A DNA stretch of 64,000 nucleotides from IMG/VR virus record IMGVR_UViG_3300028883_000048, positions 1-64,000 of that record; one strand, 5' to 3'. The first letter of the stretch is position 1; each line of letters starts with the position of its first letter. The DNA is from a virus. Positions 20,503 to 39,555 of this stretch are shown in pieces. The translations under genes were made by a program, and so were the position numbers. Below the pieces are notes generated by a model. It did not search any database. It worked only from the letters and a program-made list of their open reading frames with translations, and was not told where the DNA came from.

Positions 20503-20943
20503 TTAATCATTTTTAAACAACTCACTATAATCTCTAATTAGCTCATATATTTTCTTCTTCCTTTCTGGCTTCATGTCTGCCGTTAACTCGCGTATTTTCT
20601 TATCGAGTTCATTCTCGTTGTTTGTCGTCGAGTCTATGATTTCCCGAAATCTGCTCATAAATTTCGTTAATTCGGCTCTGTCGACTGCCTGAGATATTCC
20701 GGTGATATAATAATCCAGACTATCGGGAAGAACTCGAGCCAATACAACCCATGTCTCAATCGATGGCGATGTTCCACCAGATAATATTTTCCGGAGCCCT
20801 ACCAAAGATATATCAAAGCCGTTCCCCCCGGCCTCTAACATCGCCTGTCGTAGCGCGACATCGGTATCGTAACCCCCTTTGAGCTTGCCCTGTCTAAGAC
20901 GATCAGCAACCTCTTGTCGTAGTTTGCTGTTTTGTTTTGGCAC
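20503..20943 (-). CDS. Phage repressor (CI-like, helix-turn-helix)
   Basis: 146 residues, GTG start at 20943 fixed by AGGAGG 9 bases upstream. The N-terminal part fits a lambda-repressor-like HTH (FDISLVGLRKILSGGTSPSIETWVVLARVL: recognition helix near SPSIETW). The C-terminal part is a helical, charged region (DKKIRELTADMKPERKKKIYELI), probably for oligomerisation; no LexA-type protease domain is present. It is divergent from the 21175 HTH gene and flanks a perfect operator-like dyad, the usual arrangement of a lysis-lysogeny switch. Confidence 0.75.
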   Translation of the reverse strand: MPKQNSKLRQEVADRLRQGKLKGGYDTDVALRQAMLEAGGNGFDISLVGLRKILSGGTSPSIETWVVLARVLPDSLDYYITGISQAVDRAELTKFMSRFREIIDSTTNNENELDKKIRELTADMKPERKKKIYELIRDYSELFKND

Positions 20944-30258: not shown

Positions 30259-30675
30259 ATGTCAGGAGTAAACAAAAAGATCATCTTAGGACGTTTGGGC
30301 AAAGACCCTAAAACCGGAACAACAAAGTCGGGTAAGCCCTATGCGCTGTTCTCAATAGCAACATCTCAGAAATGGACAGACAAACAAACCGGAGAGGTTC
30401 AGGAAAAAACCACTTGGCATAACTGTCAGGCATGGAACCGACTGGCTGAGCTGGTTAGTAAGTATCTAAACAAGGGCTCACAGGTTTATCTCGAGGGTTA
30501 TACCGAGAATCAGGAGAACGAAAGCGACGGTACAAAGTATTATCGTGATATAATGATAATACAAACCATGCAATTTGTGGGCAGTAAATCAGACAACCAG
30601 TCGAACGGGAAATCAAGCGAACCTGATGAGCCACCATTCGCTGGCGATTCAGATGATGATGACCTTCCGTTCTAA
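30259..30675 (+). CDS. ssb: Single-stranded DNA-binding protein
   Basis: 138 residues. OB-fold SSB sequence: NKKIILGRLGKDP, FSIATSQKW, TTWHNCQAWNRLAELVSKYLNKGSQVYLEG. The acidic tail ends in DDDDLPF, the conserved interaction tip that recruits host and phage replication proteins. Typical length for a phage SSB. It lies in the replication part of the early operon, before the initiator. Confidence 0.95.
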   Translation: MSGVNKKIILGRLGKDPKTGTTKSGKPYALFSIATSQKWTDKQTGEVQEKTTWHNCQAWNRLAELVSKYLNKGSQVYLEGYTENQENESDGTKYYRDIMIIQTMQFVGSKSDNQSNGKSSEPDEPPFAGDSDDDDLPF

Positions 30676-30710: not shown

Positions 30711-31001
30711 ATGGGATTGTCACCAACTACAGCAGGATATTTTACATTAAAACTCAGCCGGGCTCAGGTCTGTTCTGATATTGGCATGCAGTTTATCAAT
30801 GAGCTTAAAGAAATAGTACCTTGGGGGCGATTTACAGACGATTATGGAAGAACCCACACGATCAGAGACTATGACCCCGAAACCCACCTATGGACAATAA
30901 GCTCGCTCTATCGAGATGAGGTTGAACGGCTATGGAAGAAATACTTTGTCTCTGACTGCTATGATCTGTTTGGGGATGAAAGGGGAGCTCAGGATGGGTA
31001 G
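30711..31001 (+). CDS. Hypothetical protein (96 aa)
   Basis: Start after AAGGAGATCAAATT. A small soluble protein; the central part (RFTDDYGRTHTIRDYDPETHLWTIS) is strand-rich and the C-terminus acidic. It overlaps the initiator gene by 8 bases. No family recognised. Confidence 0.5.
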   Translation: MGLSPTTAGYFTLKLSRAQVCSDIGMQFINELKEIVPWGRFTDDYGRTHTIRDYDPETHLWTISSLYRDEVERLWKKYFVSDCYDLFGDERGAQDG

Positions 31002-31953
31002 GCAAAAAAAGCGTGGGATATATAGATCGGTTTATACCGTGATCTTTGACAGCCCTGAATTTTTAAATCTCTCGAGGGATGCCAAACAGCTATTAATCAC
31101 CTTAAGATTAAGTAGGTTGACAAACATGGCACATATATTTTTATGTGACACCGGGGCAATATATACCCTATCTGATCAAACCGGGATGACAACCGAGGCC
31201 ATAGGAAAGGCTATCGATGAGCTATGCGATACCCATTGGATAGCCTATCGAGACCGTATCTTATGGGTACGGAATGGCTTAAAATACGAACCATGTTATT
31301 CCGAAAACAACCCAAAACACCGATCTCATGTTCAAGACCTGATCGATGCCCTGCCGAAATCCAAGGTCATAGTTGATTTTTGTGAATACTATGGCTATAA
31401 GATACCATTCGATTGGTCTGAGGATGACAATCGAAAGGGTATCGATAGGGTATCGGATACCCTATCGAATGGCAATCGAGAGCCTATCGATAGCCAATCG
31501 ATAGCCAATCGAAACAAAGAACAGGAACAGGAACAAGATAAAGAACAAGATAAAGAGATTACGCCGAACAAGTCGGCGCCCGCTCTCAAATCAAAGACGG
31601 CTGATAAATCTGTTAAGACCATTCCTGACACTGAACATCATAACATCATAGCCTTATTCTGTGATAAGTATAAAGATCGGTTTGATGTTAAATACTCGTT
31701 TACTGGCTCAAGAGAAGCCCCGATTGTCAAAAAGCTTTTAGCTGATTATGGTTATAATGATCTAAGTCGGATGATAGAAATGTATTTTGAGATCACAGAC
31801 GACCAATGGCTTTTAGATAAGGGCTTTACCGTCGGGAATTTTAAAACCAAAGCCATCGCATTGGCACAAAAGTTGAAAGGAGATCGACTTGATGGAGATA
31901 AAAACAGAAGATTTAGTAAAGATCGTCGAGATAGCGGTAGAGTCACACTCTGA
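30994..31953 (+). CDS. Replication initiator / DnaD-like protein with internal origin
   Basis: 319 residues, ATG at 30994 behind AGGGGAG. The N-terminal half is a winged-helix-like region (FLNLSRDAKQLLITLRLS ... TLSDQTGMTTEAIGKAIDELCDTHWIAY). The middle is a charged Glu/Lys/Gln linker, and the C-terminal part (TGSREAPIVKKLLADYGYNDLSRMIEMYFE) is helical like DnaD/phage replisome organiser domains. Eight iterons lie inside the linker-coding DNA, as in lambda O. The DnaC-like loader gene follows and overlaps it. Confidence 0.68.
   Translation: MGRQKKRGIYRSVYTVIFDSPEFLNLSRDAKQLLITLRLSRLTNMAHIFLCDTGAIYTLSDQTGMTTEAIGKAIDELCDTHWIAYRDRILWVRNGLKYEPCYSENNPKHRSHVQDLIDALPKSKVIVDFCEYYGYKIPFDWSEDDNRKGIDRVSDTLSNGNREPIDSQSIANRNKEQEQEQDKEQDKEITPNKSAPALKSKTADKSVKTIPDTEHHNIIALFCDKYKDRFDVKYSFTGSREAPIVKKLLADYGYNDLSRMIEMYFEITDDQWLLDKGFTVGNFKTKAIALAQKLKGDRLDGDKNRRFSKDRRDSGRVTL
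31428..31516. other. Putative replication origin: eight iterons with 11-base phasing
   Basis: The core ATCGA (once ATCGG) starts at 31430, 31441, 31452, 31464, 31475, 31486, 31497 and 31508, so spacing is 11 bases except one 12. The consensus 11-mer is about CWATCGAWAGS, and GGGTATCGGATACCC (31449-31463 region) is a dyad. An A-rich, purine-rich stretch follows (31513-31560). An 11-base period is one helical turn and is not a multiple of 3, so codons do not explain it. Location within the initiator gene matches lambda-type origins. Confidence 0.85.
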
Positions 31954-32707
31954 CGATGTATATTATAATCACCCTAAACTTGGCGAGATGTATTTCGATT
32001 CTTGTTTGTTCCCGGTCGGCAGTGTGGGGCAATATTGCTTTTATCTAAAACAACTAAGCGAAAATGATCGCAAGAGTTTTATAAGACATGGATTCCTGCC
32101 AGAGCATGTTATGTACCCGGTTTTAAAGCAAATTGGTATTGGGAGAAAATATTACCCCTGTGATCTCAGCTTGTTTGATAAGAATGTGTTTAAAGAGATT
32201 TGTGGTTGCGTTAGAGAGTTATTAAATGATGGTTGCCGAGGTCTCTTGATAATGGGGGATCCCGGGACAGGCAAAACGACAATCATGAGATATATCATAG
32301 AGCGCTTGGTGGTCGGAAGTGAATGTCGGATTCAACCCGGCCAGCTCTTGTTTCTGTCAATCGATCGACTATATGAGGCGATCTTTGACCGTAATGATAA
32401 GATCATCTCAAGGATCAGATCAGTCAAATATTTATTTATCGATGATCTTGGTCAGGCCTATGAATCGGAATTTGCTTGTTCAAAATTTGAATCAATAATG
32501 AGTGATCGATACAACGATCTACTACCAACATTTTTTACGACCAATAAAACGGTTAGTGAGCTGAAAGACAACCGGGCTATGCGTCGGCTTTATGATCGGC
32601 TGAGAGATCGTGACTGGATATATGCAACCCTGCAGGTTTGCGGTGAATCAATGAGAGGGGAAAAACAGATAACAAATAAACCGGAAAGGAGCTCTATGAC
32701 AGTTTAG
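31892..32707 (+). CDS. DnaC-like helicase loader (AAA+ ATPase)
   Basis: 271 residues, ATG at 31892 with AAAGGAG upstream, overlapping the initiator gene by 62 bases. Walker A GDPGTGKT (residues about 122-129), Walker B YLFIDDLG (about 180), sensor-type TNKTV and a C-terminal RLYDRLRDR arginine motif fit the DnaC/IstB family. It would load a host replicative helicase at the neighbouring origin, since no helicase gene is visible in the window. The N-terminal part, with Cys-containing segments, probably contacts helicase. Confidence 0.85.
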   Translation: MEIKTEDLVKIVEIAVESHSDDVYYNHPKLGEMYFDSCLFPVGSVGQYCFYLKQLSENDRKSFIRHGFLPEHVMYPVLKQIGIGRKYYPCDLSLFDKNVFKEICGCVRELLNDGCRGLLIMGDPGTGKTTIMRYIIERLVVGSECRIQPGQLLFLSIDRLYEAIFDRNDKIISRIRSVKYLFIDDLGQAYESEFACSKFESIMSDRYNDLLPTFFTTNKTVSELKDNRAMRRLYDRLRDRDWIYATLQVCGESMRGEKQITNKPERSSMTV

Positions 32708-32835: not shown

Positions 32836-33558
32836 ATGATAACAAATAACAGGAAGTTTGATACCGGGGCGATGGCGAAAGCCTTGGAGTATTTTCGGCA
32901 AAAGAGAGAGTTAAGCCAGAGGGATATGGCGTTGTTATGTGATGTCTCGGGCACGTCGATTCATCGGCTTGAGACCAATCAGGTCAATAGGATTCACTTT
33001 AACACCTTAAAGCGAATCTATAAAGGCCTTGACTTTTTAAACAACAATGCCGGGCTCACCAATCACGAACTATTTAAGCAAGCTCTTGCGATGCCTGAGC
33101 TGAGACCCACCAGCACGCTCACAACCAAAGACGTTGACTATATCCGCGAGGTTGTCAGACAAGACAGACGCTCCCGGAGGATGGGACGAGCTCAATATGC
33201 AAATTGTTTTAAAATCAACACGAGATTGATCTGGCGTTTAGAATCAGAAGGGTTTACCCGGATGGCCGAAAACGTCTTTGAGAAAGCCAAGACCTTACAT
33301 GAAGCTATATATCAAGCTCATACCGTAAAGGTTATGCCCCCCGCTCCCATCGACAAGAGAACATCAGATATGGGGCTTGACGTTCAATGGTCTAAAGACC
33401 CTCAGGATGACCCGATTGTGATTGTTAAGCTCAAACTATCAGAGATTAAGACCTTGAGCTCAATCCTCGAAAAGGTTAAGATGGCCGTTAAGAACATAAG
33501 ACCCCTTTCACTACCATTAGACACAACCGTTGCTGAAGCATGGCGAGGACAAACATAA
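32836..33558 (+). CDS. XRE-type helix-turn-helix regulator
   Basis: 240 residues. Residues about 14-70 (LEYFRQKRELSQRDMALLCDVSGTSIHRLETNQVNRIHFNTLKRIYKGL) are a clear lambda-repressor-like HTH. A second segment (RRSRRMGRAQYANCFKINTRLIWRLESEGFTRMAENVF) looks like a second, degenerate HTH. The C-terminal part is strand-rich. It sits alone behind a leader hairpin, and may control middle or late transcription. Confidence 0.65.
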   Translation: MITNNRKFDTGAMAKALEYFRQKRELSQRDMALLCDVSGTSIHRLETNQVNRIHFNTLKRIYKGLDFLNNNAGLTNHELFKQALAMPELRPTSTLTTKDVDYIREVVRQDRRSRRMGRAQYANCFKINTRLIWRLESEGFTRMAENVFEKAKTLHEAIYQAHTVKVMPPAPIDKRTSDMGLDVQWSKDPQDDPIVIVKLKLSEIKTLSSILEKVKMAVKNIRPLSLPLDTTVAEAWRGQT

Positions 33559-35345: not shown

Positions 35346-35379
35346 ATCGCTGGCTGATCCTCTCGGGTTGGTCAGCGAT
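35346..35379 (+). other. Long RNA hairpin in the leader of the ParB-like gene
   Basis: ATCGCTG and CAGCGAT enclose an inner arm; pairing continues through G-T wobbles to a TCTC loop, giving about 15 pairs. The wobbles only pair if the RNA is copied from the + strand direction, so it should work in the mRNA of the 35398 gene. The start ATG is 19 bases after it. Confidence 0.65.
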
Positions 35380-35397
35380 TTCTTCTCGAGGTTGTTT

Positions 35398-36042
35398 ATG
35401 ACAACTAAGAAAAAACTATTGACCAGAACAAAGAGCAAGGCAAAGCCCGATAATCCTCTTGATGTTAAGATCATCGAGTCGGTTGATATTGACATCAATA
35501 GCCTGAAACCTCATCCCCTACAGGCTGATTGTCGGACAATAAGTGAGGCTGAATTCAATGCCCTTGTTGAGCATATTAAACTCCGAGGTTATGGCGACCG
35601 AATAAAGGTCAATGTCAAGACAAACCGGATTATTGACGGACATTCACGTTGGAAAGCCCTTAAGAAATTAGGATTTAAGACCATCCCGGTTGAGGCCTAT
35701 GACCTTCATGGACTTGAAGAGGATGCGGCCTTTATATCCTTCAATGGCAATATGTTTCGAGGTCATTTCAAACCAAAGATCGGAGAGATTTTAAACGAGA
35801 TAGAGGCCGGGCTCCCTGACCTATACGCCGATCTGTGCTTTGAGACCGTCAAGCTCGATATCGTAGTTGATGAATGGCAAGCTGATATCGATAAGATGGA
35901 AAATCTTGAACCCAAAGACAGCCTTGATGATGGTCTGGTGACCGTTAAATATATGATGCCCCCTGAGGTGAAGGATGACTTTCTGGCCTCGGTTGGTAAA
36001 ATCCTCAACAATAAGCTGTTTCGGGAGGTCAAGGTCGCATGA
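35398..36042 (+). CDS. ParB/Srx-like domain protein
   Basis: 214 residues. ParB-like nuclease-fold signature: INSLKPHPLQADCRTISEAEFNALVEHIKLRGYGDRIKVNVKTNRIIDGHSRWKALKKLG, with DGHSRW (residues 80-85) as the active-site-like motif. There is no ParA gene, so it is not plasmid partition. It overlaps the DpdA gene by ATGA, so the two are co-translated. In the bacterial dpd cluster DpdB is a related ParB/DndB-type protein; I infer a helper role for DNA modification. A weak ribosome site precedes it. Confidence 0.8.
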   Translation: MTTKKKLLTRTKSKAKPDNPLDVKIIESVDIDINSLKPHPLQADCRTISEAEFNALVEHIKLRGYGDRIKVNVKTNRIIDGHSRWKALKKLGFKTIPVEAYDLHGLEEDAAFISFNGNMFRGHFKPKIGEILNEIEAGLPDLYADLCFETVKLDIVVDEWQADIDKMENLEPKDSLDDGLVTVKYMMPPEVKDDFLASVGKILNNKLFREVKVA

Positions 36043-36860
36043 TAGCGAATGTATTGGTCTCTTATGCTTATTGGAATGATCAGGTTCTGGAACTTAAAAA
36101 GATACCTGAGGACAATCTTAGGCTTGTTATTGATAGCGGGGCTTTTACAGCTCATACATCGGGCAAGCCCATAAAACTCGACGACTATTGTCATTTTATA
36201 AAGAATATACCGATCAAACCATGGCGATATTTTAATCTCGATGTAATCGGTGACCCCAAGGCGACTTATGAAAATTATAAGATCATGCTCGATCGGGGTT
36301 TTAAGCCGATTCCTATTTTTACTCCCGGCGAAGATTGGTCGATGTTTGATAAATTTTATAAAACCTCAGATGTTGTCGGTATTGGGGGACTGGTTGGTTC
36401 GGGGAAAAAGAAAATTAATTACATTAAGCGAGCCATGCAGGTTGTCGGTGATCGCCGAGTTCACCTGCTTGGTGTTTCTCATGGTGATATTATTGCTTAT
36501 TTTAAGCCCTATATGTGTGATTCATCCGATAACAGCACAGCTCGCAGGTATGGTGTCCTCATGCTTTATCATGGTAATAATGTTTGGAGTAAAATTAAAA
36601 GAAAAAGTATGAGCGATTTACCTTCGCCCCAAATTCAAAGAGCTATAAGGTCGTATGGCTATGACCCCGTAATGCTGGGCAGGGAACATAATTGGCGGGG
36701 CACATGGTCTTATGCTAATTTACTCACAAGGCAGTGTTATTTAAGGTATAGTGTTGAAGTGGAAATTATATTTAATACTCGATATTTCATGGCAATACAA
36801 GGGAGTGAAATCCCTGAGATTGTAGAGGTGTTCAATAGAGAGGTGAAACTTGCCGCGTAA
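36039..36860 (+). CDS. dpdA: DpdA-type DNA 7-deazaguanine transglycosylase (phage TGT-like)
   Basis: 273 residues. Homologue of tRNA-guanine transglycosylase adapted to DNA. VIDSGAFTAHTSG (residues about 30-42) is the substrate-pocket strand with the catalytic acid, and FNLDVIGDPKATYENY (about 65-80) carries the nucleophile Asp block; GVLMLYHGN and GVSHGD form further barrel elements. No CxCxxC...H zinc site of classic TGT is present and it is short, as in phage DpdA. It should swap guanine in DNA for preQ0 made by the following genes. It overlaps the ParB-like gene and QueC. Confidence 0.85.
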   Translation: MIANVLVSYAYWNDQVLELKKIPEDNLRLVIDSGAFTAHTSGKPIKLDDYCHFIKNIPIKPWRYFNLDVIGDPKATYENYKIMLDRGFKPIPIFTPGEDWSMFDKFYKTSDVVGIGGLVGSGKKKINYIKRAMQVVGDRRVHLLGVSHGDIIAYFKPYMCDSSDNSTARRYGVLMLYHGNNVWSKIKRKSMSDLPSPQIQRAIRSYGYDPVMLGREHNWRGTWSYANLLTRQCYLRYSVEVEIIFNTRYFMAIQGSEIPEIVEVFNREVKLAA

Positions 36861-37578
36861 ATCTGAAAAGGTTGATAAGCTTATGCTCCCGGATAAGATA
36901 TTTCTCGAAGAGGGGGCAATCGTTTTACTGAGTGGCGGTCTGGACTCCACGACTGTTTTGGCTTATGCTCAAAAGCTTCATGGTGCGATATTGGCTATAA
37001 GTTTCGATTACGGCCAGAGACATAAAATCGAATTACAAAGAGCCAGTAAAATAGCATCTAAATATGGCGTTGCTTATACTGTTGTTAATCTCCCGTTTTT
37101 TAAAAAGATCGGGCACTCTGCCTTAACTGATCTCAAAATTGATGTCCCCGAAAATAGATCAGAGATCGGTGATGATCTTCCGGCAACTTATGTTCCAGCT
37201 CGAAATATTGTGTTTCTCTCAACCGCTTTAGCTTATGCTACAGCTTTACACGCCAAACGGATTTACATCGGTGCTAATGCTCTTGATTATTCCGGTTACC
37301 CTGATTGCAGACCAAATTTTATAAAACAGTTTGAAACAATGGCGAGACTTGGAACCGACAGCGATATCGTAATTGATGCCCCCCTGATTGATCTCACTAA
37401 AGCGGAAATTATAGAGCTCGGCACCCGGCTGGGAGTTGATTATTCAATGACTTCAAGCTGTTATAATCCTCAGGGTGATCTGGCTTGTGGGGTTTGTGAT
37501 AGCTGTTTGCTGAGGAAAAAAGGATTTGCTGAGGCTGGAATTCCAGACCCGACAAAATACATGGAGGCGACTTGTTAG
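36850..37578 (+). CDS. queC: 7-cyano-7-deazaguanine (preQ0) synthase QueC
   Basis: 242 residues. Probable TTG start at 36850 behind GAGAGGTG, overlapping DpdA by 11 bases; an ATG at 36883 is an alternative. PP-loop motif LLSGGLDSTT (residues about 26-35), SFDYGQRHKIEL, YVPARNIVFLS, and a C-terminal zinc cluster CYNPQGDLACGVCDSC. It converts 7-carboxy-7-deazaguanine to preQ0 with ATP and ammonia. There is no fused glutamine amidotransferase (Gat) domain, which argues against archaeosine-type DNA. Confidence 0.95.
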   Translation: MPRKSEKVDKLMLPDKIFLEEGAIVLLSGGLDSTTVLAYAQKLHGAILAISFDYGQRHKIELQRASKIASKYGVAYTVVNLPFFKKIGHSALTDLKIDVPENRSEIGDDLPATYVPARNIVFLSTALAYATALHAKRIYIGANALDYSGYPDCRPNFIKQFETMARLGTDSDIVIDAPLIDLTKAEIIELGTRLGVDYSMTSSCYNPQGDLACGVCDSCLLRKKGFAEAGIPDPTKYMEATC

Positions 37579-37988
37579 TAACTAAAGAGTTTCAGTTTTG
37601 TGCGGCTCATCGATTGCTTGATTACGCGGGCGCTTGCGCTAACCTACATGGTCATAATTATAAGGTTCATGTGACCCTTATGGGAGAACCCGGGGCTAAT
37701 GGTATGGTTGTTGATTTTAAAGAGATTAAAAGGGTTGTTGGTCGTCTTATAGATACCCTTGATCATAATATCCTGATCAACAACAGAGATCAGGCGTTGA
37801 TCGATTTTGTCAATAAGGAATATGAGGCAGGGCGACTTAACAAAACCCCGATGGTTTTAAACTCAGACCCAACTGCCGAATATATTGCTGAGCTGATCAA
37901 AGAATACGCGACTGTTAATCTGCCCGATCACGAGGTTTATGGTGTCAAAGTTTGGGAGACAGATACCTGTTATGCAGAAGCGGTATAA
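37572..37988 (+). CDS. queD: 6-carboxy-tetrahydropterin synthase QueD
   Basis: 138 residues, TTG start at 37572 behind GGAGG and overlapping QueC by 7 bases. Zinc ligands His13, His26 and His28 in ACANLHGHNYKVHV, catalytic Cys22, and the conserved MVVDFKEIK and LDHNILI blocks. It converts dihydroneopterin triphosphate to 6-carboxytetrahydropterin, second step from GTP to preQ0. Confidence 0.95.
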   Translation: MLVTKEFQFCAAHRLLDYAGACANLHGHNYKVHVTLMGEPGANGMVVDFKEIKRVVGRLIDTLDHNILINNRDQALIDFVNKEYEAGRLNKTPMVLNSDPTAEYIAELIKEYATVNLPDHEVYGVKVWETDTCYAEAV

Positions 37989-38613
37989 AATAAACGAAAT
38001 ATTTAGATCGATTCAGGGAGAGGGATATCTGGCTGGAACTCCCTGTCTGTTTATCCGCTTTGCTGGTTGTAATATGGCCTGTCCGTTTTGTGATACCGAT
38101 CACTCGGTCAAGATGGAATTGACGGCCAATGAGATTTATGGTCGCCTTGTTGAACTCAATCCCAAGGCCAATATCTATTGGGTTGTTCTGACTGGTGGCG
38201 AACCTCTTTTACAGGTCGATACCGGGCTCTTAGAACTGCTTGGCGAATCTTATGAGATAGCCCTTGAGACAAACGGGACAGTAAAATTAGATGGCGAGCT
38301 GATGTTTGAGCATATTGCTTGTTCCCCAAAAGCTCAGCCAAAGGATTTACAGCTCTCGTATTGCCATGAGCTTAAGGTGCTATACCCGCCGATTGAGGAC
38401 AAAAACGGAAATCCCATTATCCCCGAGAGCTTTGATGATACGACTATTAGTGTTGATGGGGATTGTTTTTTGCAACCAGTTCAACCAATCAATCAAGGTC
38501 AGGTTGATCATAAAGCTTGGCAGGATAATATCCAGTCGACGGTCGAGAAAGTTCAGGAGCTCCCGGGCTGGCGATTGAGTTTGCAAATTCACAAAATGAT
38601 AGGACTGAGATAA
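37972..38613 (+). CDS. queE: 7-carboxy-7-deazaguanine synthase QueE (radical SAM)
   Basis: 213 residues from the ATG at 37972, which overlaps QueD by 17 bases. The [4Fe-4S] motif is CNMACPFCDTD (Cys33, Cys37, Cys40) after FRSIQGEGYLAGTPCLFIRFAG. Conserved LTGGEPLLQ and ALETNGT follow. It makes 7-carboxy-7-deazaguanine from the QueD product. The ribosome site (GGGAG) is 13 bases away, so translation is probably coupled to QueD. Confidence 0.94.
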   Translation: MQKRYKINEIFRSIQGEGYLAGTPCLFIRFAGCNMACPFCDTDHSVKMELTANEIYGRLVELNPKANIYWVVLTGGEPLLQVDTGLLELLGESYEIALETNGTVKLDGELMFEHIACSPKAQPKDLQLSYCHELKVLYPPIEDKNGNPIIPESFDDTTISVDGDCFLQPVQPINQGQVDHKAWQDNIQSTVEKVQELPGWRLSLQIHKMIGLR

Positions 38614-39555
38614 ATGCGAAAAAGATTTGTAACATGGGACGAGATCGACGAGATCATAAAAAAAGGTTTTTTAGATGTCTTTAATAGCGCATACGAAGCG
38701 AGTAAAAAGGGAAATCCCATCAGGCGTATTCCATCTATTTATGCTATCCCTCGCGGTGGTCTTTATGTGTTGAACCGGATAAGGGAAATATATCCGAAAT
38801 TAGATTACCGGGTTATTGACTCCCCTGAATATGCAGACTTGGTTGTTGATGATTTGATTGATTCCGGCAAAACGCTCGATGAGATTCTTCGTGTCAATCG
38901 TTCATTTACCCCCTTTGTCTTATTCGATAAACGACAAGACAACGAAAAAACCTACTACGTTTTTCCGTGGGAAGATGTTGACAAGGATGCTCAAGACCTT
39001 GTGACCCGAAGAATTGAAATGATTGGCGAAAATCCTCTCAGGGAAGGTCTTGTAAAGACCCCTGAGCGTGTTGTTAGGGCTGATAATGAGTTGTTCGCTG
39101 GTTATGAGGTAGATACCAAGGGAATGATCGACAAAGCCGTTTTCTCAGACGGCGGTGATCAGATGATTTGTCTTAACAACATCGAAATATACTCAACCTG
39201 TGAACATCATATTTTACCCTTTACAGGTGTTGCTCATGTTGGATATATACCCCGTGATGGTAAGGTCGTAGGCGTTTCCAAAATTGCCAGGGTGATCGAT
39301 GCCTTTGCCCGACGGTTACAGATTCAAGAGCGAATAACAGAACAGACCGCTAAGGCCTTATTTGACAACGAAAAACTTAACCCCCAAGGTGTTGGTGTTA
39401 TTATCGAGGCCTTCCATCTCTGCATGAGAGCCAGAGGCGTCGGTAAACAAAGATCGGTTATGACCACTTCGGCGATGCTCGGCTGTTTTCGAGACAACAT
39501 CGAGGTCAGAGAGGAATTCATGAGCCTGATCAAACTGACAAAGGCAGGTGTATAG
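38614..39555 (+). CDS. folE: Phosphoribosyltransferase-GTP cyclohydrolase I (FolE) fusion
   Basis: 313 residues in two parts. Residues about 1-120 look like a type-I phosphoribosyltransferase-like domain: YAIPRGGLYVLNRI and the PRPP motif VVDDLIDSGKT (77-87). Residues about 126-309 are FolE-type GTP cyclohydrolase I: zinc motif CEHHILPF (Cys196, His198/199), GYIPRDGKVVGVSK, LCMRARGV (Cys270), and VMTTSAMLG. FolE makes dihydroneopterin triphosphate from GTP, the first step of the preQ0 route. The start lies 1 base after QueE. The role of the N-terminal domain is not known. Confidence 0.9.
   Translation: MRKRFVTWDEIDEIIKKGFLDVFNSAYEASKKGNPIRRIPSIYAIPRGGLYVLNRIREIYPKLDYRVIDSPEYADLVVDDLIDSGKTLDEILRVNRSFTPFVLFDKRQDNEKTYYVFPWEDVDKDAQDLVTRRIEMIGENPLREGLVKTPERVVRADNELFAGYEVDTKGMIDKAVFSDGGDQMICLNNIEIYSTCEHHILPFTGVAHVGYIPRDGKVVGVSKIARVIDAFARRLQIQERITEQTAKALFDNEKLNPQGVGVIIEAFHLCMRARGVGKQRSVMTTSAMLGCFRDNIEVREEFMSLIKLTKAGV

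Follow-up and report, generated by a model that had tools for sequence, protein, structure and literature searches.

What is the function of a run of short, helically phased repeats inside the coding sequence of a phage initiator? The question is raised by a viral DNA stretch of 64,000 nucleotides (positions 1 to 64,000 of IMG/VR record IMGVR_UViG_3300028883_000048, hereafter 'the window'), in which a preliminary description had noted iterons within an initiator gene and read them as a lambda O-type origin. We propose that the array is a phage theta-type origin located inside the gene of its own initiator, bound by this initiator and assisted by the adjacent helicase loader; we give this reading a probability of about 0.85.

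Table 1. Features of the proposed origin and of its surroundings in the window
Feature	Coordinates	Strand	Description
SSB gene	30259..30675	+	Same module, upstream of initiator; PF00436, 1.9e-26
Initiator gene	30994..31953	+	319 aa; predicted winged-helix N-domain aa 1-135, linker about aa 137-205, C-domain
Second array	31209..31255 (starts 31209, 31221, 31232, 31243)	-	Four sites; weight matrix
Ninth site	31404..31416	-	CCAATCGAATGGT; weight-matrix score 12.1
Main iteron array	31427..31517 (starts 31427, 31438, 31449, 31461, 31472, 31483, 31494, 31505)	+	Eight 13-bp sites; consensus about CWATCGATAGS; core near-palindromic
Perfect dyad	Arms 31442-31454 / 31456-31468	.	TCGATAGGGTATC / GATACCCTATCGA; inverted-repeat search; within main array
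Purine/A-rich tract	31513..31564	+	Strand-asymmetric; 30 A and 11 G of 52; candidate unwinding region
Hairpin	31561..31579	.	ACGCCGAACAAGTCGGCGC; directly 3' of tract
DnaC-like helicase loader gene	31889..32707	+	phrog_50, 2e-22; phrog_3277, 6e-22

Phased iterons in the initiator gene

Eight ATCG cores, at 31430, 31441, 31452, 31464, 31475, 31486, 31497 and 31508, lie within the CDS at 30994-31953 and follow each other at steps of 11, 11, 12, 11, 11, 11 and 11 bp. The preliminary description had announced eight ATCGA cores with 11-base phasing. All eight positions are exact, but the third core (31452) reads ATCGG, and six of the steps are 11 whereas one is 12. It had correctly noted that an 11-base phase is not a codon multiple and that the sites contain dyads, as GGGTATCGGATACCC was found at 31448-31462.

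With a strict step of 11, the longest ATCG run in the window has five cores; at the other steps from 6 to 20, no run is longer than three on either window strand. Shuffling the synonymous codons of the CDS 20,000 times never produced a chain of eight cores at steps of 11 or 12; the maximum was seven, reached once. In these shuffles codons were permuted within the gene, and the test is conservative because the codons of the iterons stayed in the shuffled pool. Among the 61 ORFs of the window, a significant lag of 11 or 22 was found only in the initiator ORF. Over the whole 66.6-kb (66,583-bp) IMG/VR record, the phased three-core pattern was confined to the main array, and the reversed control pattern had no match.

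A second array and a ninth site

A weight matrix built from the eight sites of the main array was scanned across the window, where its matches cluster most densely at the initiator-gene arrays and at a ninth site. Both the ninth site, which precedes the main array by 23 bp (two turns), and a second array of four sites had been missed earlier. The sites of the second array are separated by steps of 12, 11 and 11 bp and fall within the codons for aa 72-88, where the recognition helix and the wing are predicted. Their four-site chain arose in none of 3000 synonymous shuffles, and the rest of the window lacks it; the threshold used was set after the sites were known, and a laxer one led to the same outcome.

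Several other initiators (L359, L366, L369, L416 and L442) have an 11-bp periodicity at about nucleotides 150-175, in winged-helix coding DNA, a place that resembles that of the second array in the window.

The tract, the hairpin and the neighbouring genes

That the array is followed by an A-rich region and then by a DnaC-like loader gene, as previously described, was borne out. The tract is 79% purine and belongs to the top 0.1% of the window by strand asymmetry; its melting energy is not extreme (z about 0.6-0.7). The 5' part of the loader gene overlaps the end of the initiator gene, and the loader also matches PRK08116 (8.6e-21, under that model's curated cutoff). The GC-skew check leaves the array locus unmarked, and the shift seen near 21 kb tracks gene orientation and is uninformative.

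Two side observations concern these regions. In L357, L394, L406, L432 and others, a 7-bp repeat, GGGAACA, often makes up the tract that comes after the iterons; its coding strand is rich in purines, and the iteron cores of these phages are unrelated. In the window itself, genes for QueC, a 6-pyruvoyl-tetrahydropterin-synthase-like protein, a QueE-like radical SAM protein and GTP cyclohydrolase I stand in a row at 36850-39555, which suggests that the phage may carry out 7-deazaguanine DNA modification.

The initiator protein

The linker of the initiator, at about aa 137-205, is encoded by the iterons and the tract. The best profile matches of the protein in PHROGs are weak, namely DnaD-like phrog_1701 (1.1e-6) and O-like phrog_391 (9.9e-4). 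No match was obtained with the lambda O models PF04492 and TIGR01610, to which lambda O itself, used as a positive control, matches at 5.7e-36 and 5.4e-39, respectively; nor was the RepA_N Pfam domain matched, up to E = 1.

A structural model of aa 1-144, computed from an alignment with six distant homologues found by pattern scan, is a winged helix (pLDDT 84.6, pTM 0.77). An AlphaFold prediction made without alignment reached a pLDDT of 37 and was discarded. In a Foldseek search, the nearest solved structures include the RepA_N initiators 4pta and 4pql and the Rep-DNA complex 5kbj, all weak matches (E 0.02-0.05, TM 0.4-0.5). Phage replisome organizers are among the closest viral models (E 2e-6).

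Searches for close relatives of the initiator, the loader and the terminase returned none or nearly none. Among about 10 analysable, unselected genomic homologues from the initiator's own loose family, three had a lag of 11. The array of L455, a genomic homologue from Pseudomonadota, contains TATCGATACCC, which is nearly the window iteron.

One-turn arrays in other initiator genes

IMG/VR was scanned with the pattern (ATCGA N6)x4, that is, four cores at period 11. This yielded 45 stretches. About 18 fall within O- or DnaD-like initiator ORFs (an assignment made partly by eye in the pattern scans and backed by PHROG counts), where the array precedes an acidic or purine-rich linker. As controls, period 10 gave 17 stretches, 0 of 17 in initiators, and 36 stretches matched a scrambled core at period 11, with 1 of 36 in an initiator. 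At period 12 there were 111 loci; most were protein repeats of a codon-multiple length, and about six initiator-like ORFs were included. The same ATCGA scan in bacterial genomes returned mostly intergenic tandem repeats, so that a pattern match alone is no evidence of an origin. Bacteroidales and other genomes (L049-L164) are rich in such intergenic 11-bp ATCGA tandems, with several contigs per genome in RUG737.

The possibility that the 11-bp period was an artefact of the choice of ATCGA was countered by collecting initiators by protein similarity alone. For the family designated IRTIKPEFW, 55 non-redundant members were gathered in this way. A significant lag of 11 was present in 27 of the 55, and of 22 in 17; neighbouring ORFs, taken as a control, gave 0/131 at either lag. 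The cores vary among phages (TCGACGA, TCACTGA, TTCCAAG, TACCGTA and others) and are more often palindromic than column-shuffled controls (19/48 at p <= 0.05). In isolates, the initiator genes of this family precede loaders, helicases or lambda-P-type genes. Unselected members of related DnaD-like and replisome-organizer families also carry intragenic periodic repeats; in an O-like initiator from a gammaproteobacterial genome (L342:1240-1977), the intragenic repeat is of 10 bp and not 11. One-turn spacing recurs across many phage initiators that are unrelated and whose cores differ, and this class of spacing is not peculiar to the window phage.

The repeat core follows two initiator residues in one family

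Within the IRTIKPEFW family (L356-L435), the repeat core can be predicted in 47 of 48 cases from two residues of the motif HQxx[DN][RK]P. DR goes with TCGACGA (17/18), NR with TCACTGA (13/13), DK with TTCCAAG (10/10) and NK with TACCGTA (7/7); L416 is an exception, and L411 (DH with CTCGCGA) was omitted from this four-core table. Mutual information between core and residues is highest in the recognition helix and in this motif, which lies just past the wing. When pairs with an identity of 60% or more outside the masked columns were compared, motif and core differed jointly in 69/69 and agreed jointly in 78/78. Such pairs are non-independent, and the changes counted on a tree are a better measure: at least 13 core changes were found on a tree built without the masked columns. 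One member, L396, illustrates this clearly: it has the backbone of the TCACTGA clade, yet carries SIRR/DRP and, with it, an array of TCGACGA.

The rule also held for 6 of 6 gammaproteobacterial loci, from phages and prophages, that had been kept out of the analysis; two of these are closely related, and one, Tyrion, rests on two core matches. The rule fails in distant actinobacterial members, since MooMoo and PFR1 are DK with CTCGCGA and L461 is NK with another core, and it is ambiguous in the actinobacterial Austintatious and pMLP1. The idea that the codons of the motif themselves form the iteron does not hold in the DK, NR and NK groups. That the core follows the residues of the initiator favours the view that the protein itself reads the iterons in its gene, and is strong, if indirect, evidence that initiators of the IRTIKPEFW type bind their own arrays. 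The residue-core rule comes from this family and is not transferable to the window protein.

A proposed origin and its alternatives

In the proposed mechanism, the winged-helix N-domain would bind the ATCGAT iterons with one set of contacts per helical turn, aligning the bound initiators along one face of the DNA. The resulting complex may strain or open the adjacent purine/A-rich tract, after which the C-domain and the DnaC-like loader would recruit the replicative helicase. The near-palindromic one-turn units may be half-sites, readable in either orientation. We infer that the window protein binds the array, that the tract opens, that the helicase is loaded there and that replication starts at the array.

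Three other explanations were weighed. The array could be an operator or a parS-like partition site, bound by a phage repressor or a ParB-like protein, and serve in regulation of the module or in prophage segregation. Candidate binders are indeed close by, with HTH proteins at 20503-20943 and 32836-33558 and a weak ParB N-terminal match at 35368-36042 (PF02195, 5e-4, under cutoff), and parS in mycobacteriophages is also marked by short direct repeats (PMC7157519). We nevertheless hold this to be unlikely. As in lambda, the array is placed midway along the initiator gene; arrays of this type are found again, and specifically, in the initiators of unrelated phages; and the repeat core of one family tracks the initiator's own residues.

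A recent tandem duplication, or a general ATCGA-rich repeat of the intergenic type that reached the initiator gene by chance, would agree with the bacterial 11-bp ATCGA tandems, of which only 2 of 116 loci are initiators. It becomes very improbable when one considers that the units have diverged, with only core and phase retained, that a second array is present on the opposite strand, and that viral contigs show a high rate of matches in initiators. Lower still do we place the idea that the repeats have no function at the DNA level and stem from selection on the protein, or from codon bias, within a low-complexity linker. It could draw on the repetitive EQEQEQDKEQDKE linker encoded by the downstream tract, but it is largely refuted: a period of 11 bases leaves the peptide unrepeated from unit to unit, synonymous shuffles retain the peptide and abolish the pattern, and the second array falls within coding sequence for the ordered winged helix.

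Significance for phage origins

Most phage origins are unmapped. If one-turn intragenic iterons are general, origins would become readable from sequence for thousands of phages, that of the window included. We lean towards the existence of a large, undescribed class of phage origins, in which near-palindromic iterons spaced by 11 bp lie in the genes of winged-helix initiators and in which core and specificity switch together, through a two-residue code in the IRTIKPEFW family; the window would be a member with the core TATCGATA. Neither 11-bp intragenic arrays as a class nor the residue-core rule was found in the open-access literature searched, which does not establish priority. The joint switching of core and residues makes origin recognition of the lambda O kind testable by small binding assays. 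It touches on a long-standing question, namely how specificity evolves while initiator and origin share one stretch of DNA.

Comparison with known systems

Lambda and the RepA_N plasmids already provide cases of an origin that lies within the gene of its initiator. Ori-lambda lies in the middle of gene O (PMC7466680, PMC6022878), and lambda resembles the window in having iterons mid-gene (349-433 of 900 nt, compared to about 434-524 of 960 nt in the window), an A-rich tract downstream and a helicase-loader gene next. The annotated 18-bp iterons of lambda, at 39034, 39054, 39078 and 39101, are followed by the A-rich tract and then by P. Applied to lambda as a positive control, the lag test recovered them at lag 23/24, which indicates that the method works on a textbook case. 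The two systems differ in the sites themselves: the four iterons of lambda are inverted repeats of 18 bp, spaced by 20-24 bp, and each takes up one O dimer (on dimer binding, PMC5043065), whereas the window has nine plus four short sites, mostly 11 bp apart and at steps of 11-12 bp within the arrays, one turn compared to about two. The loader also differs, being P in lambda and DnaC-like in the window. The reading as a lambda O-type origin, put forward earlier, thus stands for the anatomy (mid-gene iterons, tract, hairpin, loader next, SSB upstream), of which it is the best-supported interpretation, but the protein fails PF04492 and TIGR01610. As far as sequence can tell, the origin would work like ori-lambda with an initiator that is, by these two models, no homologue of lambda O.

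Iteron plasmids such as P1, F, RK2 and R6K likewise have direct, helically phased initiator sites next to an A+T-rich region, and plasmid iterons are typically in phase with the helix (PMC5043065). In contrast to the window, their iterons are larger and usually lie outside the rep gene, and host DnaA boxes are present. The DnaD-like and replisome-organizer initiators (phrog_1701, phrog_391) are akin to the window protein in being its best, if weak, profile matches; the experimentally studied TP901-1 Rep has no such array by the lag test. For a mycobacteriophage repA, an origin inside the gene was suspected by the authors, who reported no repeats (PMC7157519).

The initiators of the RepA_N plasmids pSK41 and pTZ2162 have a winged-helix N-domain, a DnaD-like C-domain and an origin in the middle of rep that encodes the linker, to which the predicted N-domain, the putative DnaD-like C-domain and the proposed origin of the window would correspond. 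These plasmids differ in being plasmids rather than phages and in having four Rep boxes instead of phased 11-bp sites. In pSK41, the origin is central in rep and encodes the linker between the N- and C-domains of a Rep of 319 aa (PMC5703833). This is the layout of the window initiator gene, whose product is also 319 aa long. Judged against lambda and the RepA_N plasmids, the array is most likely a functional origin placed, as in both, inside the gene of its initiator.
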